DNA of 30,582 nt from a virus: IMG/VR virus record IMGVR_UViG_3300046474_000188, positions 1 through 30,582 of that record. One strand, given 5' to 3'. A program made the translations under genes and the position numbers. Below are positions 4,001 to 30,101 of the stretch, piece after piece. The number at the start of each line of letters is the position of its first letter. Position 1 is the stretch's first letter. The notes below the pieces were generated by a model. The model worked only from the letters and a program-made list of their open reading frames with translations. It did not search any database and was not told the DNA's origin.

Positions 4001-5311
4001 TCAGTTCCCCTTTATTGTAGGCGTCTTTTTATCCATCCACTCAGCCAGCACTTCAATCGGATACCCCTCTCCGTACCCCGCACCAACCCCGGGGGTCACA
4101 TGGCCGAGGAGGGCATCCATGATCTCCAGCGGGCACTGAACAGCCCTCAGTTGATCCTTGACGGTGTGTCGTAAAGAGTGTACCCCGAGCTTGGTCCCCT
4201 TGAGGCCCTCTCGGCTCCGTATCCACTTAACTAAGGCAGCGCTGACGGGTTCCGAGGAGGCGTACTGTGGGTAGATTCGGACTGCGTCACCCGAGCGGTT
4301 TTTGGCGTCCCTAAGGCACTGCCACGCCCTATCGGTGAGCGGAATCCTCCGGGTGCTCCCCGGGGTCTTGAGGGTTCTCCAAGGGTGCGGCTTCAGCGTG
4401 ATGTGCGGGTGTTTCCCACCGTGGATGTCCCCCTTGGCAAGCCCGACGATCTCTGCTAGGCGTGCTCCGGTTTCCGCAACGACCGTGAGGATCGACCGAA
4501 GGGTGTCCTGACCGTGGACCTCGATGGCAAGCTCCAACGACCTGAACTGAGCCTCGGTAAAAACTTCCCGGTCGACAGAATCCTTGCCGTAGTCAGGTAT
4601 TTCTAACTTGGCGAAGACGTTCTCGATTTTCAGTTCGTTCTCACGGATTGCCCGGGAGACTGCAGCCTTGATCGGGGCGATGTAGCGCTGAACGGTGGCC
4701 GTGCTCATGTCCCTGTTCAGCATCCACTTAATGAACCCGTTGGCATCCTGACGCCTCACGGTCCTTAGTTCCTTGTCGGTCCCGAGGTACTCGATCAGAT
4801 ACCTGAAGGCACGCTCACACCGCGTATCGTCGCTAGGACGGGCTGCTGTGTATTGTGCAAGGCAATCCCCCAACGTGGTCCCGAAGGAGCCTTTGAGGAT
4901 CGCCACGGCAGCTTCCTCGACCTTCGACAACTTCGGCTTCTCTTCGAGGATGTCGTGGAATCTGAAGAGCGGACCATCGGCTGGCTGTACAGGATCGACG
5001 CCGTGTTCACGTAACATGGACAGCGCTTTTTCTTGAACAATCATGCGCTCTTTGCCGGGAGCAGAGGAACGCAAAAAACCCCACTCTTTATCCGTCTGAC
5101 GTATCAGTTGGGCAATAAGCGGGGCGGCTTGCAACGGGTCTGTTGTCTTGAGACTTTGAACAACGTGTGTCTTCCCGAGGACCCCGATCAAATCGAGCGG
5201 GACCTTTCTGCGGAAGTAGAGGACCGGTGATCCGGGCTTCTTCCAACAGCAGGGTATCTTCATCGGTGGTAACTCCGGTGATAACTCCGGTGGTAACGAT
5301 CCGGTGTCCAC
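4001..5311 (-). CDS. int: Tyrosine recombinase/integrase 1
   Basis: About 436 residues, the usual length for a phage integrase with arm-binding, core-binding and catalytic domains. The catalytic domain shows the full set: Arg in TGARLAEI, Lys in the LKTPGSTRRIPL strand, HSLRH, LLGHV and the Tyr nucleophile in the GYGEGY segment near the C-terminus. The longest start is GTG at 5311 with AAGGAG ten bases upstream. An ATG at 5263 with GGAG nine bases upstream is an alternative giving 420 residues. The N-terminal codons of the long form overlap a tandem repeat array that probably forms attP. It would catalyse site-specific integration and, with a helper, excision. Confidence 0.92.
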   Translation of the reverse strand: MDTGSLPPELSPELPPMKIPCCWKKPGSPVLYFRRKVPLDLIGVLGKTHVVQSLKTTDPLQAAPLIAQLIRQTDKEWGFLRSSAPGKERMIVQEKALSMLREHGVDPVQPADGPLFRFHDILEEKPKLSKVEEAAVAILKGSFGTTLGDCLAQYTAARPSDDTRCERAFRYLIEYLGTDKELRTVRRQDANGFIKWMLNRDMSTATVQRYIAPIKAAVSRAIRENELKIENVFAKLEIPDYGKDSVDREVFTEAQFRSLELAIEVHGQDTLRSILTVVAETGARLAEIVGLAKGDIHGGKHPHITLKPHPWRTLKTPGSTRRIPLTDRAWQCLRDAKNRSGDAVRIYPQYASSEPVSAALVKWIRSREGLKGTKLGVHSLRHTVKDQLRAVQCPLEIMDALLGHVTPGVGAGYGEGYPIEVLAEWMDKKTPTIKGN

Positions 5312-5440
5312 AGTGAGCTAACTCCTTGATTCCACAGCGTTTCTACGGTGATAACTGGTGCCCAAGAGATGGATCGGGTACTCGTAGAACTCAATGGAAT
5401 CAAGGACTTACATGCTGCAAAGTGGTAACCGGTGGTAACT
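5264..5440. other. attP: Putative phage attachment site (attP) with arm-type repeats
   Basis: Six copies of (C)GGTGRTAAC lie at 5264, 5276, 5288, 5346, 5421 and 5430; the first three are exactly 12 bp apart. A perfect 11-bp inverted repeat, CCTTGATTCCA (5324-5334) and TGGAATCAAGG (5395-5405), brackets the centre. Within it, TGGTGCCCAAGAGAT (5356-5370) read on the - strand ends in CTTGGGCACCA, which resembles a tRNA 3' end, a common attB target. Array plus core next to an integrase start is the classic attP layout. The repeats could instead be operators for the nearby RHH protein. Confidence 0.55.
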
Positions 5441-5496
5441 AAAGCCGATACTTCAGAGATACCGCCATTAGCGGGCTGAACTATCGTCCTCGGTTC

Positions 5497-5793
5497 TCAC
5501 AGTGCCCCAAGTTCCTTCAGGTATTCTTGAGCCAGCTTATTGCCAGCACGGTCAAAGAACACCTGCATCGACTTGATACCGCCCTTGTTCTCCATCAACC
5601 ATTTGATCTTCAGGTACAACTCCGGTTCGATCTTCAGGTTGTACGTCATTCGGTTCTGCTCTTTCATGATCTCCGGGTTCTCCCAAGGAAACCGCGCCTT
5701 TCGGGTGGCTTCCTCCCGTGCCGCGTCTTTCAGCTTTTCGATCTCTGCAAGTGCCTCTGCCAGCTTCTCTTCTGCCGTCTTCATCATCATCAT
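5497..5793 (-). CDS. Ribbon-helix-helix-like DNA-binding protein, putative regulator or excisionase
   Basis: 98 residues with a good Shine-Dalgarno (AGGGGCG) before four ATG codons in a row. Residues 5-35 are a charged helix (AEEKLAEALAEIEKLKDAA). Residues 47-98 look like an Arc/MetJ-type fold: a strand RMTYNLKIEPEL, a helix YLKIKWLMENKG, then a longer helix after a turn. It lies between the attP-like array and a TTGCAC-type promoter, so it may be an Arc-like repressor, an excisionase or an accessory factor for integrase 1. I recognise the fold pattern only, not a named family. Confidence 0.5.
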   Translation of the reverse strand: MMMMKTAEEKLAEALAEIEKLKDAAREEATRKARFPWENPEIMKEQNRMTYNLKIEPELYLKIKWLMENKGGIKSMQVFFDRAGNKLAQEYLKELGAL

Positions 5794-5848
5794 TCGCCCC
5801 TAGTCTAAGTAGTTTTGTGTGTGAGTGCGTTTGCTTGACCGTGACTGC

Positions 5849-5877
5849 AGTGTATAACCTTGCTCAACTATGTGCAA
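5849..5877 (-). promoter_or_regulatory. Host-type promoter for the RHH gene
   Basis: Read on the - strand: TTGCAC (5872-5877), 17-nt spacer, TACACT (5849-5854), 55 bp before the RHH start. The same -35 and spacing recur at four other places in the window, which raises confidence although the -10 is weak. Confidence 0.45.
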
Positions 5878-6071
5878 GAACCTTTTTCCGTTTCCCTTGT
5901 CTCCTGTGTGCGGGCGACAACAAAGCCAGAAAAGTCCTCCATCGCGTCCACGAGGTCTTCGTAGGGCAGCGAGGGGAACCCAAGGCCGTAGATGCGATAA
6001 CCGAACTCAGCGTCACCCGAGAGGGTCAGTGATTTCCCGTCGGGGGTCGTCGCGGTTACAAGAGTCGTCAT
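5868..6071 (-). CDS. 67-aa protein of unknown function
   Basis: MTTLVTATTPDGKSLTLSG starts at 6071 with GGAAG four bases upstream. An upstream in-frame extension exists but has no ribosome site. The protein is acidic, with a short beta-like N-terminal half and a helix around YEDLVDAMEDFSGF; the tail is charged (RTQETRETEKGS). No family recognised. It lies between the RHH gene and integrase 2, and its end overlaps the promoter of the RHH gene. Confidence 0.5.
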   Translation of the reverse strand: MTTLVTATTPDGKSLTLSGDAEFGYRIYGLGFPSLPYEDLVDAMEDFSGFVVARTQETRETEKGSCT

Positions 6072-6197: not shown

Positions 6198-6995
6198 TTA
6201 CCGCACTGCGGCAAGAAGTTCATCATCCGAAATGTGAGCGTAGCGTAGCGTCGTCTCGATCTTCCGATGACCGAGGAGCTTCTGGACCACTGCGATGTTC
6301 TTCGTCTTAGCCAGCGTGCGGGTTGCGGCGGTGTGGCGCAGGGAATGCAGGACGAAATCGTCGTCCCCTTGGAGACCCATGTGTTCCTTCAGACGATTCC
6401 AAACGATGCGGATTTGGCCGACCGTCAGGTGCTCGAATGTCCCTCCGGCCAGCGCAGCTTTCGCACGGTCGTTCAGGGGAATCGAGCGGGCCTTCTTCGT
6501 CTTGTTCTTCCAGAGGCGAATCCAGTCGCCGTCGATATTCTTCGCTTCGAGTTCCATCAGTTCCCCTCGGCGCATCCCGGTCTCGATCAGGACGGTCAGG
6601 AACCGAGCGATCTCCGTCTCGTTCCACGCGGTCAACATCAGGAACATCGTCTTCTCTTCTTCCGGCGACAACCAGCGGACCCGGTCGTTGTCCTCGGAGC
6701 GGTAGGTGATCTTAGGCATCTTGCTGATCCACTCGCGGTCCAGCGCGTACTTGAGGATCGTATGGACGTTCGTCAGCTTGCGGTTGATCGTAGCGTCAGC
6801 AAGGCGGTTGTCCATATCTTGGACAAAGGCATCGATGTGGATCGTCTTCACTTCAGCCAGCGGAAGATCACCGACCACCTTGATGAACGCCTCGACGTTG
6901 GTGATCGCGGTCGAGCAGTAAGCCTTACCAGCCCACAGGGGCCGCTTGGCAACCATCAGGAGTTCGTTCAGGGTCGTGGGGGTCTTGATCTTCAT
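6198..6995 (-). CDS. Tyrosine recombinase/integrase 2
   Basis: 265 residues from the ATG at 6995, which has GAGG seven bases upstream; a 40-residue longer frame lacks a ribosome site. An N-terminal SAM-like core-binding domain (residues 1-100) is followed by the catalytic domain with Arg in ETGMRRGELM, Lys in NKTKKARSIPL, HSLRHT, LLGHRKIETTLRYAH with the Tyr nucleophile near the end. It is compact, like XerC/D or short phage integrases, and lacks the extra arm-binding domain of integrase 1. It has its own promoter and is isolated from the upstream operon by a terminator. Its role could be excision, a second attachment site or dimer resolution. Confidence 0.88.
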   Translation of the reverse strand: MKIKTPTTLNELLMVAKRPLWAGKAYCSTAITNVEAFIKVVGDLPLAEVKTIHIDAFVQDMDNRLADATINRKLTNVHTILKYALDREWISKMPKITYRSEDNDRVRWLSPEEEKTMFLMLTAWNETEIARFLTVLIETGMRRGELMELEAKNIDGDWIRLWKNKTKKARSIPLNDRAKAALAGGTFEHLTVGQIRIVWNRLKEHMGLQGDDDFVLHSLRHTAATRTLAKTKNIAVVQKLLGHRKIETTLRYAHISDDELLAAVR

Positions 6996-7019
6996 ATGTG
7001 CCTCGCTGTGTGAGACTCT

Positions 7020-7048
7020 ATTATGTAAGACAATGCAGCCCTGTGCAA
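7020..7048 (-). promoter_or_regulatory. Host-type promoter for integrase 2
   Basis: On the - strand: TTGCAC (7043-7048), 17-nt spacer, CATAAT (7020-7025), with TCTC starting four bases after the -10 as in the two right-hand promoters. It lies 25 bp before the integrase 2 start and just after a terminator. Confidence 0.55.
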
Positions 7049-7060
7049 GAACTATCTTTC

Positions 7061-7089
7061 GAAAAAATACCCCTCCGGTTAGGGAGAGG
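7061..7089 (-). terminator. Rho-independent terminator of the replication operon
   Basis: On the - strand CCTCTCC (7083-7089) pairs with GGAGGGG (7070-7076) with one G-T pair, followed by TATTTTTT. It lies 7 bp after the stop of the last operon gene. Confidence 0.8.
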
Positions 7090-7095
7090 TAATTG

Positions 7096-7332
7096 TTACT
7101 CGGTGTGCTCGGCATATCCAGCGAAGCCGTTGGCCTTGTTCGTCAGCCAGAACCCCTCGGCATTCTTGCGCATCCGCTTGGCGATCATCTGCGTAGGCTT
7201 GAGGCATCTGCGGGGGTCCAAGGCGCTCGTGTAGTCACCCGTACGGTGCTGCTCGAAGGCTGCGGTGCTGTTGAAATACTCGTTGCAGCCGGGGCACTGG
7301 TTGCGGTCCCCGGAGAGTTTGCCATCTTTCAT
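7096..7332 (-). CDS. Small FDXHR-type zinc-binding protein
   Basis: 78 residues. The start at 7332 overlaps the upstream stop (ATGA). Residues 10-35 carry CPGCNEYFNSTAAFEQHRTG, a C2H2-like pattern; the phage family I recall reads CxxCxxxF...FDxHR. The rest has RRCL and KNAEGFWLTN, also typical of that family. A nucleic-acid or protein-interaction role is likely but unproven. It is the last gene of the operon and is followed by the terminator. Confidence 0.7.
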   Translation of the reverse strand: MKDGKLSGDRNQCPGCNEYFNSTAAFEQHRTGDYTSALDPRRCLKPTQMIAKRMRKNAEGFWLTNKANGFAGYAEHTE

Positions 7333-8827: not shown

Positions 8828-9016
8828 TTATTCGCCTCGGGTAGCCTTTCGGTAATCGGCTTCCAGTTGTTGGTAGTGCGCTTCGATCTTCTCTCGGAGT
8901 TCCAAGCGTTCTTTGGATGGCATCTTGTGCGCCCCTAACACTTCGTTCAGCATCTTGCCGAGGTCGCTGTCAGGGGACACACGAGTGCCCTTGTAGTACA
9001 GGGCGGCGGTGCTCAC
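8828..9016 (-). CDS. 62-aa protein of unknown function
   Basis: The GTG start overlaps the upstream stop (GTGA). The protein (MSTAALYYKGTRVSPDSDLG...) is mostly helical, with a charged C-terminal helix ERLELREKIEAHYQQLEADY. No family recognised. Confidence 0.5.
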   Translation of the reverse strand: MSTAALYYKGTRVSPDSDLGKMLNEVLGAHKMPSKERLELREKIEAHYQQLEADYRKATRGE

Positions 9017-9723
9017 AGGAGTTCCGGGTAGAGTTTGTTCAGGTGCTCGATGGTTGCCTCGACTTCCTTGAGGGCCGCTGCGGTTGCTGTCTGGTATCGA
9101 GCCGGTGCGAAGTTTTCCTCACGCGATTCGCAGCCAGCCGTGGGACGGTTGTCGATCAACATCCCGGTGGCCTCAGTAACCAGCAGGATCGTTGCGCACG
9201 CCTTCACGGCTCCAAGGTGATGCACGAGTTCCTTGGGGTCCACACGTTCACCAGAGACCCACGCTTTGATGTGTCGGAGCATTGCGCCCACGTACGTCAT
9301 CGCCTCGACTTCGGTCTTGAGGTAGTTGTTCTCGCCGTACTTCCGCTTGCCACTGTGCAGGGCCGCACTTTCGTGCAACTCGGCGATCTGGTGGATCAGG
9401 TGGACGGGCGGCTTCTTGTCCCCGTAGAGTTGCTTGGGGTTCGGTGCGGTGGTCTTGAGGCCCTTGAGCTTGGCTTCGAGGCCCATGTCGGAACTTGCGG
9501 GTCCTCCGACAGCAGGGCGTGTGTAGGTGACCGAGTGCTGATGCACACTCACGGGGTCCATGCGCCACTTGTTTCCAGTTTGTGCGTCACCCGGCATCGG
9601 GTCGTAGGGGTGTCCCATTGCAGGGCCGTGGAAGTAGCCCGGAGGGATTTGTACAACTGCTCCCGGTTTTAGACAACCACCAGCTTGTGCGATGGCGTCG
9701 TCGAGTGTCATGAAAGGGGTCAT
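9013..9723 (-). CDS. dATP/dGTP diphosphohydrolase-like protein (DUF5664 type)
   Basis: 236 residues from the ATG at 9723, which overlaps the exonuclease stop (ATGA). The core at about residues 125-200 reads HLIHQIAELHES, then SGKRKYGENNYLK, VGAMLRHIKAWVSGE and DPKELVHHLGAVKACATILL. I know this KYG-NW/RHLxAW/HHLAHAxAC pattern from the phage DUF5664 family, annotated as the N-terminal domain of dATP/dGTP diphosphohydrolases. The N-terminal 100 residues are not typical. A dNTP-pool role fits the MazG, ThyX and RNR genes of this phage. Activity is inferred from the family only. Confidence 0.6.
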   Translation of the reverse strand: MTPFMTLDDAIAQAGGCLKPGAVVQIPPGYFHGPAMGHPYDPMPGDAQTGNKWRMDPVSVHQHSVTYTRPAVGGPASSDMGLEAKLKGLKTTAPNPKQLYGDKKPPVHLIHQIAELHESAALHSGKRKYGENNYLKTEVEAMTYVGAMLRHIKAWVSGERVDPKELVHHLGAVKACATILLVTEATGMLIDNRPTAGCESREENFAPARYQTATAAALKEVEATIEHLNKLYPELL

Positions 9724-10448
9724 GGTGTCCAGAGAATAGGTTCGTTCTTTTCGAAGTCCCAATCACTTGCGTGAAGGATACGGGCGCATCGAGCTTGTAC
9801 TAGGGCGTCCTCTTCGGTGAGTTTCGCCTTGATGAATGCGGCCTTCACGGTTTCCCATGAGACCCCTTTGGTATCCAGCAGCTTCGCAGCGGAGATCGGA
9901 CCAATCCCCTTGCATCCGGGGTAACCATCGGTCGTATCGCCGGTCAGCGTCTGAAACAGGAAGTTCCTGAAGGCTTCTTCCTCGGTGACCGTCTGCCACT
10001 CACCGTTGAGGCGCTGGTCGATGTGGTAGAACTCGCCGGGGATCGTCTTCATGTCCTTGTCCATCGACAGGATTCCGCACTGGCCTTTGAACTTCGTCTG
10101 AAGGATTCCCATGCAGTCGTCACCTTCCAGCATCGGCTTCTCGAAGTGGGGATACTTCTCCTTCGCCCACGACTTCAGAGCGTTGTAGCCCACAGGCTTG
10201 CGACTCTTGCGGTTTGTCTTGTATTCCGGGTAGACGTCCTTGCGGAAGTTGTAGTCGCCTGTGAAACACAGCTTGAACTCGTCACAGCCAGAGTCGTCGC
10301 AGAACTTCTTGATCAGGTCGTCGAAGTAATCCTTGGCCTTCGCGATGTCAGTCCAGATTGACCAGACATCCGTGTCCCATTCGATCTCCGTTTCGTGTGC
10401 CGAGGAGGCGCGGTATGCGGGAATGTCCGCGTCAATCAGGAGCATCAT
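9720..10448 (-). CDS. 5'-3' exonuclease (T7 gp6-like, FEN family)
   Basis: 242 residues. It removes 5' ends and RNA primers and in T7-like phages degrades host DNA. Acidic metal-binding motifs appear in order: LLIDADIPAY at the N-terminus, YKTNRKSRKP around residue 77, EGDDCMG near 108, SMDKDMKTIPG near 129, and the helix-hairpin-helix TLTGDTTDGYPGCKGIG near 168. The start at 10448 overlaps the upstream stop (ATGA). Confidence 0.88.
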   Translation of the reverse strand: MMLLIDADIPAYRASSAHETEIEWDTDVWSIWTDIAKAKDYFDDLIKKFCDDSGCDEFKLCFTGDYNFRKDVYPEYKTNRKSRKPVGYNALKSWAKEKYPHFEKPMLEGDDCMGILQTKFKGQCGILSMDKDMKTIPGEFYHIDQRLNGEWQTVTEEEAFRNFLFQTLTGDTTDGYPGCKGIGPISAAKLLDTKGVSWETVKAAFIKAKLTEEDALVQARCARILHASDWDFEKNEPILWTP

Positions 10449-11063: not shown

Positions 11064-11244
11064 GGATATGATTGAGACCACGTTGGGTGACGCACCAACG
11101 CCCCCCGAAGGTGTCGTCAGTCAGTCGTGTTGTAATGAGGCCGAGAGAAGCAGCCATAGCTACCTCATAGGCGTTCTCTCGGGCAAAGTTTCCCTTTAGC
11201 GCGAACGGTTCAGTCCACGCCTTGTTCAGCAGTTCGTTGAGCAT
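10984..11244 (-). CDS. 86-aa protein of unknown function
   Basis: The start at 11244 overlaps the DNA polymerase stop (TGATG). The first 55 residues (MLNELLNKAWTEPFALKGNF, then AMAASLGLITTRL and GGRWCVTQRGLNHI) look like a small winged-helix-type phage protein. The last 30 residues are Arg/Ser-rich and coincide with the out-of-frame overlap, so they may be a recent extension. Function unknown. Confidence 0.5.
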   Translation of the reverse strand: MLNELLNKAWTEPFALKGNFARENAYEVAMAASLGLITTRLTDDTFGGRWCVTQRGLNHIHAVTESRGHSVSLRKPPAHGRRSKRS

Positions 11245-13169
11245 CAGTGGCAGTCCGCCCAGTTGTCACCGATCTTGAACTCGGCACCCACAGGGCACTT
11301 GAGGTTGAAGTAAGTGCCAGCACGTTGAGCGCATAGCACAACCATCTCTCCAAACTCCTGCTCCAATCCTTCACGCACAGCGAACTGTTGTTCATCGTGA
11401 ATGAAGCCGAGGAGAGTGAAGTCCGCATCCCAGCCATAGCGATAGCCGCGACGTTCAGCTTCCAAGAAGCACTCCACGACCCAACGCTTCGCGATAGCGG
11501 CACCAGCGCCCTGTAAGAGCGTGTTGAGGGCAGCGTGCTTGTGACGGACAGAGATGCGACGGCCATCCAAGCCGAACAGGTGACCACGTTCAGCAGCCTT
11601 GTCCACGGCTTTCTTCAGGGACCCGAGGGCCGGAAGTTTCGCGAGGAATGCAGCCTTCAGCCCCTTGCCGACAGTCCGCTGGAATGCTTCGGACTTCGTA
11701 GGGTGTGTGATCGATCCGATCTTGGCATCGCCAGCCCCGTAGAGCCACCCATAGATGAACGTCTTCGCGTTGTCACGAGTAGGAAGACCAGCAGCGGCCT
11801 GATTGACCGCGTGGATATCCCCTTCGAGGATTACTCGTCCGTACTCCCCGTCATCCCACTTCGCCATGTAGTGGGCAAGGCAGCGCAGTTCGATCCCTGA
11901 TAGGTCGGCACCCACTTGTCGGAAGCCAGCGCGCACATGGAAAAGCCTTCGGCAGTCTTCGCCCCACAAAGCTCGCACACTAGGTACTTGGGCAATGTTT
12001 GGGGACGAGTGCGTGCAGCGGCCTGTAACAGCGCCGTTTGTGTTGCAGGAGTGGTGGATGTGTCCTTGCTTCTCAGACTTGAGCCATGCCTGATTTCCTT
12101 CCGCAAGCTGCCCAATTCGTTTCTCCAGTAAGAAGTAGTCCGACAGAATCTTCGCTTCGGGGTAGTCCAGCTTCGACAGAATCACTTCGTCGACAACAGG
12201 CTTGCCACCTTCAGTGAAGACCTTGGGTTCCCATCCGTACTTGCGGATGAGTCGTTGTGCGATCTGGTCGCGGGAACCGGGGTTGAACTCGGTTACTTTG
12301 GCCTTCAACTGCTTGCCCGTCTTTGCGCTGATACGCTCTTCGACGAGGGGCGGGAAGGTTTCCATCATGTGCAGACGAAGATCGTCACGCTTGGCTGCAA
12401 GGGTCGCGTAGAGCCTTCCTGCGTCTTCAACCTTGAACGGCCAGCCTGACCTCTCCATCATGGAGCAGAACCAACGGATGTCGTGTTCCAACTGCAGAGC
12501 ACGTCCGTCATACTCGATAGCCCCAAGCTTGTTCCAGAGGGCCTCAGTGACTTCAACGTCGAGGTCACAGTAGTCGCCCATGGCATCGCTGTACTCAGCC
12601 CACTCAAGGGCCACAGGGTAGTTAGCCTTGCCCCATGCAGCGACCCATTTCTCCTGCGCATCCTCGTCGAACTTCTTGAGGGCTGCGGGAGTCAGGGATT
12701 CCATGTGCGTCAGGAAGTCGGTCTCGTAGTTGGCACGAATCCACTCATCCTTGAAGTCATCGGCGTACTCACCCTTTTGGAGTCCCAAACGATAACCCCA
12801 AGCCTCTAGCTTGTGGGAACCAACAAGTTTCCCCGGGAGTCTTCCGGCCTTGATGTGACCACCATCGCGGGTGATCAGGTCGGAGAAGATCAGGCGAGAC
12901 ATAACCAGCGTGTCCCGTACCCGTTCCCGCTGTACCACGAACCCCGGATACAACTTCTGGATCACAGGGATGTCGTACGAGATGATGTTGTGTCCACCAA
13001 GGATGCCTTCGTCCGCTGCCTTCTGCAGATACTGAACGGCACCTTGGATATTCTTCGGAGTCCAGCGGCGCTTCTCCCCGGTGCTTGGGTCCTTGACGGA
13101 CACGCAATGGATCACCGTTACATCTTGCAGGAGACCATTGGTTTCCAAGTCAAACAGGGTAACGCGCAT
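11244..13169 (-). CDS. DNA polymerase, family A (T7 gp5-like)
   Basis: 641 residues from the ATG at 13169, which has AAGGAAC seven bases upstream. The N-terminal 3'-5' exonuclease has FDLETNG (Asp7, Glu9) and GHNIISYDIP. The polymerase has motif A (ADLSGIELR), the O-helix motif B (TRDNAKTFIYGWLYGAG) and motif C (IHDE). A Tyr occupies the O-helix position that is Phe762 in E. coli Pol I and Tyr526 in T7, so poor discrimination against dideoxynucleotides is expected. It is a little shorter than T7 gp5 (704). It works with the primase-helicase and ssDNA-binding protein encoded upstream. Confidence 0.93.
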   Translation of the reverse strand: MRVTLFDLETNGLLQDVTVIHCVSVKDPSTGEKRRWTPKNIQGAVQYLQKAADEGILGGHNIISYDIPVIQKLYPGFVVQRERVRDTLVMSRLIFSDLITRDGGHIKAGRLPGKLVGSHKLEAWGYRLGLQKGEYADDFKDEWIRANYETDFLTHMESLTPAALKKFDEDAQEKWVAAWGKANYPVALEWAEYSDAMGDYCDLDVEVTEALWNKLGAIEYDGRALQLEHDIRWFCSMMERSGWPFKVEDAGRLYATLAAKRDDLRLHMMETFPPLVEERISAKTGKQLKAKVTEFNPGSRDQIAQRLIRKYGWEPKVFTEGGKPVVDEVILSKLDYPEAKILSDYFLLEKRIGQLAEGNQAWLKSEKQGHIHHSCNTNGAVTGRCTHSSPNIAQVPSVRALWGEDCRRLFHVRAGFRQVGADLSGIELRCLAHYMAKWDDGEYGRVILEGDIHAVNQAAAGLPTRDNAKTFIYGWLYGAGDAKIGSITHPTKSEAFQRTVGKGLKAAFLAKLPALGSLKKAVDKAAERGHLFGLDGRRISVRHKHAALNTLLQGAGAAIAKRWVVECFLEAERRGYRYGWDADFTLLGFIHDEQQFAVREGLEQEFGEMVVLCAQRAGTYFNLKCPVGAEFKIGDNWADCH

Positions 13170-13180
13170 ACTTGTTCCTT

Positions 13181-13711
13181 TTAAAAGAAGTCGTTCGATT
13201 GGAACGTGAACTCGGGATACTTCGCCTTGAGGCGTCCGAGACGTTCCGCTTTGATGTTTGCCGAGTAGGTGACGATCTCGGTCATGTACGTCTTCATGAA
13301 CTCCGTGGTCCCATAGACGTTCGTCCCATCGAACCAGCACTGGCTGATCGAATCCGGGAAGCACGCAACGCGGTGCCAGAGGTCCGTGACCAGAAGCACG
13401 TCCATGGTCTTTTCGTCGTTCTGGAACACCATGTCGGTGTCCTCGTATGTCGGGTCGCTGATGTTCTTCAGACTGAACATCGACGCCAGAGTCGCGACCG
13501 ATTGGTGGCTGGTCGTTGCGTAGTCCTGATCCTTGACCTCACGGCCAAAGAGTGAGTCACGAACAGCACCGCCGATCAACAGCAGGTCCGGGTGGAGTTC
13601 CCGAAGGACCCGAAGGCCCTTGCCGTACTTCCGTTCGACGACGCCGCTGCCCGGGACCTTGATGATCTGGTTCGGGTCCTTGATCGGGTCGTATTCCTTG
13701 AGAAGGTTCAT
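13181..13711 (-). CDS. Nucleotidyltransferase with CCA-adding enzyme/poly(A) polymerase-like head
   Basis: 176 residues from the ATG at 13711 (GGGAGTG upstream). Residues 45-64 read LIGGAVRDSLFGREVKDQDY, the GG-x-V-RD...D-x-D signature of class II Pol-beta-type nucleotidyltransferases, with Asp61 and Asp63 as likely metal ligands and TMDVLLV as a candidate third acidic strand. The neck, body and tail domains of full CCA enzymes (about 400 residues) are missing. It could repair tRNA 3' ends or modify another RNA. An RNA ligase lies 300 bp upstream in the same operon. The substrate is inference. Confidence 0.7.
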   Translation of the reverse strand: MNLLKEYDPIKDPNQIIKVPGSGVVERKYGKGLRVLRELHPDLLLIGGAVRDSLFGREVKDQDYATTSHQSVATLASMFSLKNISDPTYEDTDMVFQNDEKTMDVLLVTDLWHRVACFPDSISQCWFDGTNVYGTTEFMKTYMTEIVTYSANIKAERLGRLKAKYPEFTFQSNDFF

Positions 13712-13712
13712 G

Positions 13713-13889
13713 TCACACTCCCGATTTAGCGAGGAGTTCAAGGGCACGGGCATATCGCGACGTGAGTTCGTGTGCGCTGGCTTCCGCGCGGTATGCCTGA
13801 GCGAGAACGCGGATAGCTTGGGCCGAGGCGCTGATAACACCGTCTTCTTCGAATCGATTGGCAAGAGCCAGTGCTTGATTCAGATTCAT
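13713..13889 (-). CDS. 58-aa helical protein of unknown function
   Basis: The start at 13889 overlaps the upstream stop (ATGA) and the stop is one base before the nucleotidyltransferase ATG. MNLNQALALANRFEEDGVIS, then AQAIRVLAQAYRAEAS and YARALELLAKSGV, predicts two or three helices. No family recognised. Overlaps on both sides support it. Confidence 0.6.
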   Translation of the reverse strand: MNLNQALALANRFEEDGVISASAQAIRVLAQAYRAEASAHELTSRYARALELLAKSGV

Positions 13890-14023
13890 TCGTCTTCTCC
13901 GAGTACGTCAAAGGCCGAGTCGAACTTCTTCCCGGCGTTGCGGTATGCCATGTAGCCAGCGGCGATCAGCACAGCCACGAAGGCTAGGGCGATGCCATAG
14001 ACCAGTACGTCTTCGGGGTTCAT
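13886..14023 (-). CDS. 45-aa single-span membrane protein
   Basis: ATGA overlaps at both ends. MNPEDVLVYGIALAFVAVLI is a short polar N-terminus running into one membrane helix (about residues 7-25), then a basic YRNAGKK and an acidic tail. Function unknown. Confidence 0.6.
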   Translation of the reverse strand: MNPEDVLVYGIALAFVAVLIAAGYMAYRNAGKKFDSAFDVLGEDE

Positions 14024-14622
14024 GCGTTCCCCTTAGGAAGGTGGTCGTTCTCGATGAGGACCTTGAAGACTTGCTTCGAGGCCGTGTGGTACACGATGAT
14101 CCCTTCGGGTTTCATGAAGCCGGGAACAGCGAAGGAACCCTTGTACTTCAGGAAGTCCAGCGCCCAATCCACGTCTGCCATGGAGCCTTGCAGGATCACA
14201 GGAACCGTCTCGCAGCACTTCGGAGTGTTCGGGTTGTGTGCGCCCCAACGAGCCGTGTTGAACAGGGCGAAGCGCTTGTGATCGAGGCCGTAGGTGCTTT
14301 GGATGCCCGCGCCATACCATTCACCGAAGTGCTGGCCGTGGCCGAGCTTGAACAGTTCAGCTTGGTTCTCGTAGCACCACTGTGCGAAGCCGAAGTTGTC
14401 CGTCTGCTTGCCAGCGTGGTTCGGCGTGATCCAGCGATTGCGGGAACCGACACGCATGGTCACCAGTTGACCTTCAGCGTTGTACGTCTCTGCAACGATG
14501 TTCTCGTCCGAGAGGCGGTCGTCCACCGTGATCACGATCTGAGCGTTCGTGCCGTCGATCTTCTCGGTGATAATGATGTCCCGCTTCAGGCGCGGGGTCT
14601 TCGGGTAGGGTTGGAATTCCAT
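14020..14622 (-). CDS. RNA ligase, Rnl2-like nucleotidyltransferase
   Basis: 200 residues. Ligase motifs appear in order: motif I TEKIDGTN with Lys21 as the adenylated lysine, SRNR (60-63), motif IIIa FGEWYG (99-104), motif IV PEGIIVY near 173 and motif V FKVLIEND near 188. This is the catalytic core of T4 Rnl2-type ligases, here without a clear C-terminal domain. It would seal nicks in RNA, for example host-cleaved tRNA. The start forms a TGATG overlap with the upstream stop. A DNA ligase function is less likely because motif I is KxDGTN, the Rnl2 form. Confidence 0.8.
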   Translation of the reverse strand: MEFQPYPKTPRLKRDIIITEKIDGTNAQIVITVDDRLSDENIVAETYNAEGQLVTMRVGSRNRWITPNHAGKQTDNFGFAQWCYENQAELFKLGHGQHFGEWYGAGIQSTYGLDHKRFALFNTARWGAHNPNTPKCCETVPVILQGSMADVDWALDFLKYKGSFAVPGFMKPEGIIVYHTASKQVFKVLIENDHLPKGNA

Positions 14623-14858
14623 CAGAGTTGCACCTTTACCTTGATCTTTACGGCCGCGTAGAGTTGGGTGTCAGGGAAACGGTTGTTCATTTCAGCGGCG
14701 AACTTCTTGGCGACACGCTTATCGCTGTTGATGAAGATTTCGTGCGACGGGTATCCATCACCTATGACGCTCCCCGGTGCCCCGTAGATCAGGTTGGTAT
14801 CTGCGGAGTCCTTCAGGTCAGTACGACGAACTGCATAGACGGTTACTTTGGTTTTCAT
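14622..14858 (-). CDS. 78-aa protein of unknown function
   Basis: Start at 14858 with a GAGAGAAAG ribosome site. An alpha/beta protein with strands KVTVYAVRRT and AAVKIKVKVQL framing the sequence; the middle has SDKRVAKKFAAEMNNRFP. No family recognised. It is coupled to the RNA ligase by a TGATG overlap. Confidence 0.55.
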   Translation of the reverse strand: MKTKVTVYAVRRTDLKDSADTNLIYGAPGSVIGDGYPSHEIFINSDKRVAKKFAAEMNNRFPDTQLYAAVKIKVKVQL

Positions 14859-14876: not shown

Positions 14877-16505
14877 TTAAAACCCGTACGCCTCGTCGAG
14901 TTCTTTCTCGGACGGCTGCGGTACGAAGTCGGTTGATTTGTCGAACAGGCGACCAGAGTTACGGTCGTATCCGAGTGCGATGGTTCGGCCCGTTGCTTGG
15001 CCTGTGTATCGGTCCTTCAGAATCCGGAAGGTCGTCGTTTGGCGAACCTCTTCGTCTTCCGCTTGCTGGTCTCTTTCGAGGCCGAACATGAAGAAGCTCC
15101 AGAAGCCGATTGCTCGTGCGCCCTTGAAGTGACGGATGGATACATGCCCGCCTTCCTCGTGGCTCTTCCCTTCGGGGGTTGCCAAGTGGGAGACGAAGTG
15201 GATGATGATGCTGAGTTCATTCGCCAGCCCCGCCATCTCTTTCATGATCTTTTCCAGCGACCCGCGTTCGTCCGATGTGTCAGCCATGGCCGTCAAGTGG
15301 TCCACGTAGAAGATGCGGATTCCTTCGGCATGCGCCATGTATCGGATCTTGGCCGCTACAACGTCCCACTCGGTCTCTCCGAAGGAGTCGTATAGGTAGA
15401 CCTTCCCCTCAAGCTCGCGGACGGCCTGAAGGCGCTCCTCGCGGGTCCAAGAGCCATCGGGAATGTGGAACCTCTTGCCCTTCGCCTTGCCAGCGATCCG
15501 AGCAGCGGTTTCCGTGGGCTTCTGCTCCAAGAAGATGCAGCCGACCTTCATGCCCAACGTGTGAACGTCGTACTCGATCTGTTGAGTGATGAAATCGGTC
15601 TTGCCGATACCAGTGCCAGCGCCGAACGCATAGATTTCGCCGTAGCGTCGTCCGTAGGTCAGCTTCGTGAGACCGTCCAAGAACCATGCGAGACCTTGTT
15701 CGATCTCTCGGTCCAACTCCGCATACAGGTCAGCGATCCCCACGATTCCATCGGGGCGGTACGCCTTCGCATTCCACAGGGCTTGAACGACTGCTTCACC
15801 CTTGCCCTTCATCAGGCACTCGTTGGGGTCCTTCAGGGGCAGCGAGGCGATCTTGACCTTACCGGGCGGGAACATCTCAGCGACCGCAGCAGCAGCCTCC
15901 TGACCTTGCTCGTCCATGTCGAACATGAGCACGATCTCTTCGAAACCCTCGAAGAACTCCATCTGCCTCGCCATGTCTTTCTTGGCACTATGGGCACCAC
16001 CGGGGACACTGACGACCGGCCACTTGTTACCCTGCAACTGCGATACGGTCAGCGCATCGAGTTCGCCTTCGCAGACAACGATCTTCTTCCCCTTGTTGAA
16101 GAGGTTCTGACCGAACATCGGCGGGTGCTTCGGTTCTCCGAGGAACTTGAAGTCCTTGTCGGCAGTCCTGATCTTCACAGCCACGACAGCGCCGTCTTTG
16201 AAGTACGGGTACATATGGACAGCTTCGCTCTTGAAGGACCCCACACGGACACCGAAGTGTCTGCAGGTTTCCTCACTGATGCCTCGGGCCTTGAGACCCT
16301 TCACATCGGCGTTGCTGTAGAAAGCTAGATCGTCTGACACTTTGGTGTTCCTTCGTTTGTATGTGGGTTCCTCACCATCGTGTCGACCTTTACAGCCGTT
16401 GGCAAAGCAGTGGGTATGTCCGTCTGAGTAATGAGCGTTGGCATCTGAAGAGCCGCACTGCTCGCACGGTCCTTTGAACAGCAGGGTTGACTCTTCGTAT
16501 TCCAT
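14877..16505 (-). CDS. DNA primase-helicase (T7 gp4-like)
   Basis: 542 residues. The N-terminal zinc-binding domain has Cys14, Cys17, Cys33 and Cys38, like the four cysteines of T7 gp4. The TOPRIM primase fold follows with VVCEGELDALT and LMFDMDEQGQEAA. The helicase domain has Walker A GAGTGIGKT (Lys302), a LFLEQKP-like EQKP strand and Walker B IFYVDHL, and an acidic C-terminus ending in Phe, as in T7 gp4 where it contacts the polymerase. It primes and unwinds at the fork. Confidence 0.93.
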   Translation of the reverse strand: MEYEESTLLFKGPCEQCGSSDANAHYSDGHTHCFANGCKGRHDGEEPTYKRRNTKVSDDLAFYSNADVKGLKARGISEETCRHFGVRVGSFKSEAVHMYPYFKDGAVVAVKIRTADKDFKFLGEPKHPPMFGQNLFNKGKKIVVCEGELDALTVSQLQGNKWPVVSVPGGAHSAKKDMARQMEFFEGFEEIVLMFDMDEQGQEAAAAVAEMFPPGKVKIASLPLKDPNECLMKGKGEAVVQALWNAKAYRPDGIVGIADLYAELDREIEQGLAWFLDGLTKLTYGRRYGEIYAFGAGTGIGKTDFITQQIEYDVHTLGMKVGCIFLEQKPTETAARIAGKAKGKRFHIPDGSWTREERLQAVRELEGKVYLYDSFGETEWDVVAAKIRYMAHAEGIRIFYVDHLTAMADTSDERGSLEKIMKEMAGLANELSIIIHFVSHLATPEGKSHEEGGHVSIRHFKGARAIGFWSFFMFGLERDQQAEDEEVRQTTTFRILKDRYTGQATGRTIALGYDRNSGRLFDKSTDFVPQPSEKELDEAYGF

Positions 16506-22627: not shown

Positions 22628-24604
22628 ATGAACGCACCTTCACTGCGGGCGCAGCTAGTAGCTCGCCGCACATACCAAAGACCCTTGGATTCCGAGGGCA
22701 CCGTATTTGAAACATGGGAAGACATGGTCGGTCGAGTAATCGGTCACCAGATGTGGCTGTGGGATCGCGCACAGCTTGGTGGTATCGGTCAGGACGAACT
22801 GTACGAACTGAATGAGCTTCAGACGCTGATGTTGGAGCGTAAGGTTCTGATGAGTGGTCGTACGCTGTGGCTCGGGGGCACTTCGGTTGCCAAGAAGCGC
22901 GAAGCTTCGCAGTTCAATTGTTCGTTCACCCAAGTCGAGACCGTACAGGACATCGTCGATGTTATCTGGTTACTGCTTCAGGGCTGTGGCGTGGGCTTTA
23001 GTCCCATCGTCGGTCAGCTTACGGGCTTCCAGAAGCGCATCCCCACAATCGAGATCATCCGCTCCAACCGCACCGAGAAGGGTGGTCGTGAGCACAACGT
23101 AGAGACGTTTGAAAATGGCGTGTGGACAATCGCAGTCGGTGACTCTGCAGAAGCTTGGGCAAAAGCCTTGGGCAAACTGGTCGCCCATAGACACAACGCC
23201 AGTAAATTTGTATTCGATGCCTCGGCTATACGCCCCGCTGGTGAGAGACTTGCAGGATATGGATGGATCAGCAGCGGAGACGATGCACTCGTCAAAGCCG
23301 TCGAAGCCATCTTCGCAATCCTCAATCGACGAGCAGGTTCGCTCCTCACTCGCATCGACATCCTCGACATCGTCAATTGGCTGGGCACGATCCTGTCCTC
23401 GCGTCGCAGTGCTGAGATTGCTCTTTTTGAGTACGGTGCAGACGAATGGCAAGAGTTCGCAGTAGCCAAGCGCAACTGGTGGGAAGACAACGTGCAACGC
23501 GCACAGTCGAACAACTCCCTCCTGTTCAAGCAGAAGCCTTCGCGGGCTGAACTGCAGCACATCTTCGACCTGATGGTTGAGGCTGGTGGTAGTGAGCCGG
23601 GTTTCATCAACGGTGAAGCTGCGACCCGTAGGGCACCTTGGTTCAAGGGTGTCAATCCGTGTGCTGAGATTCTGCTCGGCAACAAATCATTCTGTAACCT
23701 GACCGAAGTAGACGTGTCCAAGTTCAAGGGCGACTCTGCTGGCCTTCGTCGTGCAATCGAGCTTGCTGCTCGTGCGAACTATCGACAGACCTGCGTTGAC
23801 CTGAACGATGGCGTGCTCCAAGAGGCATGGCACCGTAACAACGACTTCCTTCGCCTCTGCGGTATCGGGCTGACGGGTGTCGCTGGTCGTCCTGACATGC
23901 GCTCGTATGAGTATGAAGAGCTTCGCCGTACTGCACATGCTGCAGCCTATGGCATGGCCGACGAACTCGGTACGCCGCGCCCGAAGAACATCACAACGAT
24001 CAAGCCCTCGGGCACCCTGTCGAAAGTGATGGACGCCGCTGGTGAAGGTATGCACAAGCCCATGGGCCGCTACATCTTCAACTCGGTCAACTTCGGCAAA
24101 CACGATCCGCTCGTGAAGCTGTGTCGTGAGGCTGGTTACAAGGTCATCCCGAATCCCTCGGACCCCGAAGCATTCCTGATCACTCTTCCTGTTGAAGCGA
24201 AGGGCGTTGAGTTCTCCAAGTTCGTCAAGGACGGCCGAGAGCTTGAAGTCAATCTCGAATCAGCGATTGATCAGCTTGAGCGTTACAAGATGCTCATGCA
24301 GTCGTGGTGTGACCAGAACGTTAGCGCAACGATTTCCTATGGTGTGGACGAAGTTCCTGCCATCGTGGATTGGTTGCTGACGAACTGGGATACCTACGTT
24401 GGTGTGTCGTTCCTGTTCCGTACGGACCCGACGAAGACCGCAAAGGACCTCGGTTACCTCTACCTTCCGCAGCAGCCTGTGACGAAGGAAGAGTACGAAG
24501 CATATGTCGCCACACTGCAGCCGATCGATCTCAACAGCACCGCGCAAGACTTGGACGCTGAACTGATGGACGAATGTGTGAACGGGAGTTGCCCGATTCG
24601 GTAG
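22628..24604 (+). CDS. nrdJ: Adenosylcobalamin-dependent (class II) ribonucleotide reductase
   Basis: 658 residues; ribosome site GAGAGAG is close to the ATG. It reduces ribonucleotides to deoxyribonucleotides using a B12-derived radical. It resembles the monomeric Lactobacillus-type enzyme: Cys in SQFNCSFTQ (one redox Cys), the finger loop NPCAEILLGNKSFCNLTEV with the radical Cys, Glu and second redox Cys, and a C-terminal CVNGSCPIR pair that relays electrons from thioredoxin or glutaredoxin. It is a little shorter than the 739-residue L. leichmannii enzyme. It is the only + strand gene between the replication operon and the right-hand - strand operons. Confidence 0.93.
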   Translation: MNAPSLRAQLVARRTYQRPLDSEGTVFETWEDMVGRVIGHQMWLWDRAQLGGIGQDELYELNELQTLMLERKVLMSGRTLWLGGTSVAKKREASQFNCSFTQVETVQDIVDVIWLLLQGCGVGFSPIVGQLTGFQKRIPTIEIIRSNRTEKGGREHNVETFENGVWTIAVGDSAEAWAKALGKLVAHRHNASKFVFDASAIRPAGERLAGYGWISSGDDALVKAVEAIFAILNRRAGSLLTRIDILDIVNWLGTILSSRRSAEIALFEYGADEWQEFAVAKRNWWEDNVQRAQSNNSLLFKQKPSRAELQHIFDLMVEAGGSEPGFINGEAATRRAPWFKGVNPCAEILLGNKSFCNLTEVDVSKFKGDSAGLRRAIELAARANYRQTCVDLNDGVLQEAWHRNNDFLRLCGIGLTGVAGRPDMRSYEYEELRRTAHAAAYGMADELGTPRPKNITTIKPSGTLSKVMDAAGEGMHKPMGRYIFNSVNFGKHDPLVKLCREAGYKVIPNPSDPEAFLITLPVEAKGVEFSKFVKDGRELEVNLESAIDQLERYKMLMQSWCDQNVSATISYGVDEVPAIVDWLLTNWDTYVGVSFLFRTDPTKTAKDLGYLYLPQQPVTKEEYEAYVATLQPIDLNSTAQDLDAELMDECVNGSCPIR

Positions 24605-28819: not shown

Positions 28820-29551
28820 ATGGCACTCGAAACCGCAACTTATATTTCCCAGTTGGTCGCAGCAAACCCAACTGGCGCTGACCCAATTGCAAATGCAGAC
28901 GACCATCTTCGGATGATCAAACAGGTCCTTCAGAATACCTTCCCTAATCTTTCAGGGCCGGTCAGTATGAACCAGTCCCAGCTTAATACTGCCATGCCTA
29001 TTGGCGGCATTATCATGTGGTCGGGAGCTTCTATTCCGTCGGGCTGGGCATTGTGTAATGGTCAAACCGTAGCTCGGTCGGATGGTGCGGGTAATATCAC
29101 CACGCCTAGTCTCTTGGATAAATTCCCGACCTGCGCTGGTGGCTCTTATGCCGTTGGTGCCACTGGTGGTGTAGCTACGGTAGCCCTGTCGGTCGCGCAA
29201 CTCCCCCCGCACAACCACACGGCCAACACGGATACCCAAGGGAACCACACCCACCACGTCACCGGTAACACAGGTGGAGCTGGTGCTCACTCCCACTCGC
29301 TGCCGAACAACGGCTCCGTACAGGCAGGCTCGGATAACGGTGGCGCTATGTCTCCGGTTTCCACGGGCTACGGCTCGGGCCGCAATCAGAACCCCACGGA
29401 CCCTGTCGGGGACCACGGTCACTACTTCGAAGTCGACACATGGGCTGCGGGTAACCACGCGCACAACGTCTTCGTTGGCAGCACCGGCTCGGGCGCAGCT
29501 ATCGAGAACCGTCCTCCGTTCCAAGCCCTCTACTTCATCATGAAGGTCTAA
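28820..29551 (+). CDS. Tail-collar domain protein 1
   Basis: 243 residues. The N-terminal ~65 residues (MALETATYISQLVAANPTGA...DDHLRMIKQVLQNTFPNL) are shared with the next gene and probably anchor it to the virion. A phage tail collar motif follows: IGGIIMWSGASIPSGWALCNGQ. The C-terminal half is Gly-rich with HNH, HTHH, HSHS, HGH and HAH motifs, as in metal-binding receptor tips, and ends ENRPPFQALYFIMKV. It likely sits at a fibre or spike tip and contacts the host. No strong ribosome site is seen before the ATG. Confidence 0.85.
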   Translation: MALETATYISQLVAANPTGADPIANADDHLRMIKQVLQNTFPNLSGPVSMNQSQLNTAMPIGGIIMWSGASIPSGWALCNGQTVARSDGAGNITTPSLLDKFPTCAGGSYAVGATGGVATVALSVAQLPPHNHTANTDTQGNHTHHVTGNTGGAGAHSHSLPNNGSVQAGSDNGGAMSPVSTGYGSGRNQNPTDPVGDHGHYFEVDTWAAGNHAHNVFVGSTGSGAAIENRPPFQALYFIMKV

Positions 29552-29555
29552 GCAC

Positions 29556-30101
29556 ATGGCGCTCGAAACCGCTTCCTACATTTCGCAGCTTGTCCCTGCC
29601 AACCCGTTGTCGACAGACTCGGTCTCCCAGTCGGACGATCATCTCCGTCTGATCAAGGTGGCCCTCAAGAACACCTTCCCCAACCTCGATGCCCCGGTGA
29701 CGGTCACGCCCTCTCAGATGAACAACCCGGTTCCCAAGGGTGTCGTCGTGATGTGGTCGGGAGACATCGGTCTCGTACCGGCTGGCTGGGCGCTCTGTAA
29801 CGGAGCCAATGGGACTCCTGACCTTCGCAACAAGTTCGTGCTCGGCTCGGGCGATCTGTATGCCCAAGGGTCCTCAGGTGGCTCCGCTACGACTGACATG
29901 GCTGGTTCGCACACGCACACGCTCAACTCGGCCACGGCGAACCTCTTGGTCACCACGACCAAGGTGGCTGCTGGTACGGACGTCGATGCGATCACCGCAG
30001 TGACCCCTCAGGGCCACACGCACACCGCGAACCTCGTGGGCGACCATCAACACGCTGACCTGCCTCCGTATCTGGCGCTGGCGTACATCATGAAGCTCTA
30101 A
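29556..30101 (+). CDS. Tail-collar domain protein 2
   Basis: 181 residues starting four bases after the previous stop. The N-terminus (MALETASYISQLVPANPLST...DDHLRLIKVALKNTFPNL) is a close paralogue of protein 1. The collar motif (VMWSGDIGLVPAGWALCNG, then PDLRNKFVLGSG) and the His-rich HTHT/HTHT/HQH strands ending LPPYLALAYIMKL follow. The tip differs from protein 1, so the two may be alternative or stacked receptor-contact proteins. Confidence 0.85.
   Translation: MALETASYISQLVPANPLSTDSVSQSDDHLRLIKVALKNTFPNLDAPVTVTPSQMNNPVPKGVVVMWSGDIGLVPAGWALCNGANGTPDLRNKFVLGSGDLYAQGSSGGSATTDMAGSHTHTLNSATANLLVTTTKVAAGTDVDAITAVTPQGHTHTANLVGDHQHADLPPYLALAYIMKL

Follow-up and report, generated by a model that had tools for sequence, protein, structure and literature searches.

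An RNA ligase and a short nucleotidyltransferase as probable independent accessory enzymes in the helicase-polymerase interval of a T7-like phage

In a T7-like podophage, the helicase and DNA polymerase genes enclose a variable interval with an RNA ligase gene and, a few hundred bases further on, the gene of a short nucleotidyltransferase. We propose that these are two independent accessory enzymes, of which the ligase would seal RNA and the nucleotidyltransferase would extend RNA 3' ends (estimated probability about 0.58). The pair combines known phage gene families in a new way.

The window, i.e. the whole stretch of DNA that was analysed, is a virus record of 30,582 bases, which is partial. 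Its minus strand encodes a T7-type RNA polymerase, a gp2.5-like SSB, endonuclease I, ThyX, a primase/helicase, the studied region, a family A DNA polymerase and a 5'-3' exonuclease. Positions 13181-14622 are the exact span of the RNA ligase and nucleotidyltransferase genes. In the direction of the minus strand the interval and its borders are arranged as follows.

14877..16505, minus strand: T7 gp4-like DNA primase/helicase, upstream border of the variable interval (phrog_239, E=4.5e-183)
14622..14858, minus strand: 78-aa ORF between helicase and ligase
14020..14622, minus strand: RNA ligase, 200 aa (PF09414, phrog_548, motifs in 50 relatives, AlphaFold2 and Foldseek)
13886..14023, minus strand: hydrophobic 45-aa single-span membrane microprotein
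13713..13889, minus strand: 58-aa ORF
13181..13711, minus strand: short nucleotidyltransferase, 176 aa (phrog_1614, PF01743, hhalign to E. coli Cca/PcnB)
11244..13169, minus strand: family A DNA polymerase, downstream border of the variable interval (phrog_17, E=1.5e-133)

Along the whole run of genes from helicase to polymerase, adjoining starts and stops overlap or almost touch. A preceding sequence-only reading had placed two tiny genes between the two enzymes, and these were found at 14023-13886 and 13889-13713. The nucleotidyltransferase ORF was listed mechanically with a TTG start at 13864, but the start is likely the ATG at 13711, which adjoins the preceding stop codon. The reading frames of the ligase, the nucleotidyltransferase and the 45-aa and 58-aa ORFs are all intact in the close relative L002 (compared records carry L numbers), and the dN/dS values against this relative are 0.47, 0.23, 0.44 and 0.34, respectively. 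Hence, all four ORFs are real genes and under purifying selection. The studied region has no close nucleotide match in the phage collection, and no Rfam family matched in the window.

The 45-aa protein has the acidic tail FDVLGEDE, and a single-span membrane protein of 45-51 aa with an acidic tail (mostly F[DN]xDEYx) is located 3' of the ligase gene in many relatives (L002, L013-L018, L020-L023, L026, L027, L029, L030 and L049). This protein is a steadier neighbour of the ligase than the nucleotidyltransferase is. In L030, a record without nucleotidyltransferase, homologues of the 78-, 45- and 58-aa genes are followed by the polymerase gene, with the homologue of the 58-aa ORF immediately before it.

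The ligase matches PF09414 with E=2.2e-11 and 44.6 bits (cut-off 27), and phrog_548 with E=4e-24 over the first ~219 of 341 profile positions. Its motifs read EKIDGTN (I, with K21), GEW (III, with E101), PEGIIV (IV, with E173) and FKVL (V, with K187), so that the KxDG element with the acceptor lysine and motifs III, IV and V of the Rnl2/PF09414 family are all present. E20, K21, D23, G24, N26, the GEW of motif III (E101) and E173 are invariant in 50 of 50 distinct relatives, and K187 of motif V is kept in 48 of the 50. The second lysine of motif V in T4 Rnl2, which we take to be K227, has no evident counterpart, since motif V reads FKVL. The AlphaFold2 model of the ligase has a mean pLDDT of 90, and the sole significant neighbour found with it in Foldseek was the Naegleria RNA ligase NgrRnl (E ~1e-4, query-normalised TM-score ~0.5). 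This best structural match is a nick-sealing RNA ligase. The likeness to Rnl5 is structural only: the score against the Rnl5 profile of NCBIfam, TIGR02306, is 15.4 bits, far under the cut-off of 151. The catalytic fold and motifs I-V are common to the window ligase, T4 Rnl2 and the Rnl5 enzymes NgrRnl and DraRnl.

In contrast to these enzymes, the window ligase has no additional domain. T4 Rnl2 carries a C-terminal helical domain, whereas the window ligase ends 13 residues past motif V; Rnl5 enzymes carry an N-terminal nick-sensing domain, whereas just 20 residues precede K21. Judged from these boundaries, the protein is the lone catalytic domain of an ATP-dependent RNA ligase of the Rnl2/Rnl5 type. 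The catalytic domain of T4 Rnl2 alone retains adenylylation and the joining of pre-adenylated ends but seals nicks poorly in the full reaction. Both known add-on domains for substrate binding are missing from the 200-residue ligase. The same domain, with 51% identity, occurs as 'RNA ligase 2' (phrog_548/PF09414) in Rhizobium phage RHEph21, where its gene takes an equivalent position immediately behind the helicase gene and a nucleotidyltransferase is missing. A scan of genome contigs with the ligase gave matches only in Caballeronia, a betaproteobacterial MAG and Saccharopolyspora.

The nucleotidyltransferase matches PF01743 just over the gathering score (E=3.6e-5), and most of the protein (residues 35-174) matches phrog_1614 (E=1.4e-7). 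Its active site is GGAVRD-x8-KDQD with a third acid within MDVLLV. The columns G47, G48, R51, D52, D61 and D63 are invariant, and GG..RD and D.D are kept in 15 diverse members of the family. As the sequence-only reading had recognized, the catalytic cores of both enzymes are intact, and the assignment of the two proteins to their families stands on these profile matches and conserved motifs. Its remark that a nucleotidyltransferase with only a head domain is unusual was not borne out. The same PHROG also contains proteins of phiKMV (gp16, E=6e-57), gh-1 (7e-58), LKD16, Lolek, VPv81, Lo5R7ANS and BB8. In a published survey, 37 out of 46 Pectobacterium Autographiviridae phages carried a gene of this kind, as did about 60 of the more than 500 others (PMC7693777). 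Therefore, a short stand-alone nucleotidyltransferase is the norm in phages, T7-like ones included. phiKMV gp16, Lo5R7ANS gp33, BB8 p30 and the gh-1 protein share the catalytic motif with the window protein, are of similar size (184-217 aa vs 176 aa) and are likewise encoded near or inside the helicase-polymerase interval; the identity of the window protein to the members compared is ~17-25%. A locus search based on VPv81 found nothing, and a search of the literature returned no experimental function for the widespread phrog_1614 nucleotidyltransferases.

As the AlphaFold2 model of the nucleotidyltransferase (12 sequences, pLDDT 45) was set aside, profile-profile comparison was used instead. 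With hhalign the protein aligns to E. coli Cca/PcnB from the GGAVRD motif through the first neck helix (probability 96%, E=3.7e-9). It thus has head motif A in common with bacterial CCA-adding enzymes and poly(A) polymerase I and is remotely homologous to them as far as the first neck helix; by this alignment it descends from a CCA/poly(A) polymerase head. FPDSISQ stands opposite RRDLTINA, so that RRD of motif B is replaced by FPD. ANIKAERLGRLKAK is aligned beneath the EDPLRVLRVARFAAR region of the CCA-adding enzyme, and EDxxR of motif D is not retained, the sequence being AERLGRLKAK. Both the hhalign result and the family alignment therefore lack the RRD and EDxxR pair of class II CCA-adding enzymes. 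The neck, body and tail domains are missing as well: the protein of 176 aa stops inside the first neck helix, whereas Cca has 412 aa. Repair of CCA ends is unlikely because the protein has neither the CTP- and ATP-selecting residues nor the tRNA-holding domains. Judging from motifs and domain content, the protein is not a CCA-adding enzyme.

We then come to the distribution of the two genes, for which the sequence-only reading had proposed a check of co-occurrence. The outcome was mostly negative. Among 50 ligase-bearing records phrog_1614 was found in four, namely the window phage, its close relative L002, L031 and, weakly, L067, and PF01743 in three. Conversely, the ligase is present in 1 of 13 related nucleotidyltransferase records. 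PF09414 exceeded its cut-off in 1 of 19 nucleotidyltransferase-bearing records, that of L031, with a weak match in the large phage Tr1. Many of the compared records are fragments, and absences of either gene are therefore soft. The match in L067, a possible further pairing, was not taken as strong support, since the protein fits phrog_18122 better (E=2e-64 vs 1.2e-4) and ~2.2 kb separate its gene from the ligase. This gene of L067 (7705-8550), downstream of the RNA ligase, encodes a nucleotidyltransferase-like protein with the motifs GGAVTS...DVDVYF and R..KY..RGY.

In the clade of the window, most loci (L007-L030) have the ligase between helicase and polymerase and no nucleotidyltransferase. 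Both genes occur together only in the phage of the window (L001 and L006, which are identical) and in one further lineage (L002, L003, L024 and L025). The ligases of the window and L002 are 73% and the nucleotidyltransferases 83% identical, and the pair is kept in both diverged lineages. In L031 a different phrog_1614 gene ends ~10 bases before the ligase gene, which is the reverse of the order in the window. Hence, the adjacency of the two genes arose at least two times, and L031 is the best counter-evidence to their independence. In other relatives the same gap is occupied by an HNH-like or methylase-like gene (judged by eye). The interval contains the ligase only in RHEph21 and most of L007-L030, the nucleotidyltransferase only in Lo5R7ANS and BB8 (profile-confirmed, with no RNA ligase match), and neither gene in LUZ100 and RHEph01 (profile-confirmed). 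In phiKMV and LKD16 it contains a nucleotidyltransferase and a DNA ligase; the order in phiKMV is helicase, nucleotidyltransferase, DNA ligase, polymerase. The ligase and the nucleotidyltransferase have been gained and lost independently. As both are interchangeable passengers of one interval, gene neighbourhood is weak evidence of a joint function.

The sequence-only reading had combined the two genes into a tRNA-repair cassette, in which the nucleotidyltransferase puts back the nucleotides lost from cut or trimmed tRNA ends, which the ligase reseals, so that host anticodon nucleases are countered. The intact active sites of both enzymes and their adjacency in the window and L002 lineages, and in opposite order in L031, are in line with this idea. 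A similar pairing of RNA ligases with RlaP nucleotidyltransferases is predicted in jumbo phages, there together with kinase/phosphatase healing enzymes (PMC7824862). RlaP likewise has a Pol-beta fold; however, it belongs to another Pfam family (PF10127) without a match in the window, and the window nucleotidyltransferase, neither RlaP nor by motif of the CCA type, lacks a tight co-distribution with the ligase. The ends left by anticodon nucleases require healing by a kinase/phosphatase before an ATP-dependent ligase joins them. The T4-type combination of Pnkp and ligase was not found: the polynucleotide kinase family AAA_33 (PF13671), the sole kinase family examined, has no match in the window, which is a partial record of 30.6 kb, or in 10 related records. 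Without such a kinase for 5'-OH/2',3'-cyclic-P ends, the ends produced by a PrrC-type nuclease would need a host or other enzyme for healing, whereas repair of 5'-P/3'-OH breaks by the ligase is possible. Moreover, no tRNA genes were found in the window, and the pair is rare among relatives. Coupled tRNA repair is thus possible but unsupported, and we regard the cassette as unlikely. Quite unlikely, in our view, is a two-enzyme RNA repair unit of T7-like phages that does without healing enzymes, in which a catalytic-domain-only ligase and a functional RlaP analogue derived from a CCA head were assembled at least twice (window/L002 and L031).

Each enzyme may also be considered by itself. The RNA ligase could replace a missing phage DNA ligase and seal replication nicks, acting from the very interval that holds the DNA ligase gene of phiKMV. 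PF01068 was detected in the positive controls phiKMV, gh-1 and LKD16, but in none of 16 related or nucleotidyltransferase-bearing records, five of which carry the RNA ligase and exceed 40 kb (L012, L030, L031, L008 and RHEph21). Given this lack of a DNA ligase and the precedent of phiKMV, the RNA ligase might do part of the job. Against this, Rnl-type ligases require an RNA 3' end, the OB-fold domain is absent, and a host ligase could serve; since close relatives manage without either ligase, we rate such a replacement low and consider it highly doubtful. For the nucleotidyltransferase, modification of a protein or tRNA to regulate or disable the target, as by MNT/MenT-type toxin-antitoxin enzymes, would agree with the action of small Pol-beta-fold enzymes of like size; MenT3 is reported to add cytidines to tRNA (PMC11541572). 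The protein groups with the CCA/PolyA_pol head family, however, outside the MNT families, PADLOC gave no match, and no paired HEPN-type gene was seen. This role is very improbable.

For the two independent enzymes that we favour, activities and substrates are inferred from sequence. K21 of the ligase would accept AMP from ATP; the AMP would be transferred to an RNA 5'-phosphate, and this end would then be joined to a 3'-hydroxyl. The most likely task of the ligase is the repair of RNA breaks made by nucleases that produce 5'-P/3'-OH ends. The activity of the nucleotidyltransferase is most likely some form of 3'-end nucleotide addition, presumably the template-free extension of RNA 3'-OH ends by one or a few nucleotides.

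Several other features of the phage and its relatives were observed. Two different tyrosine recombinase/integrase genes (4001-5311 and 6198-7115, minus strand) suggest temperate features in a T7-like phage. LUZ100, with a helicase 59% identical to that of the window, has likewise been reported to have temperate features (PMC10134795). A 47 kb relative (L012/L091, NZ_FCOI02000046.1) is an entire contig of the Caballeronia temeraria genome assembly, which hints at soil bacteria of the Burkholderia type as hosts of the clade and at its possible persistence as an independent replicon. A B12-dependent (class II) ribonucleotide reductase gene (22628-24604, plus strand) is encoded opposite to the replication genes and lies upstream of the gene for the RNA polymerase. 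Two adjacent tail-collar-like genes (28820-29551 and 29556-30101, plus strand) with the near-identical beginnings MALETA[TS]YISQLV are likely a tandem duplication. In the gene at 9013-9762 (minus strand) the C-terminal half matches the dATP/dGTP diphosphohydrolase domain PF18909, overlapping a match to the T7-lysozyme-type phrog_2252; a fusion or a mixed profile is possible. In L011 the DNA polymerase gene is interrupted by ~650 bp (5343-6000) containing an HNH/endonuclease VII-like nuclease ORF, possibly a group I intron or homing insertion.

Adjoining genes for an RNA ligase and a nucleotidyltransferase suggest a tRNA-repair pathway, yet in these phages the two genes assort independently in one slot.
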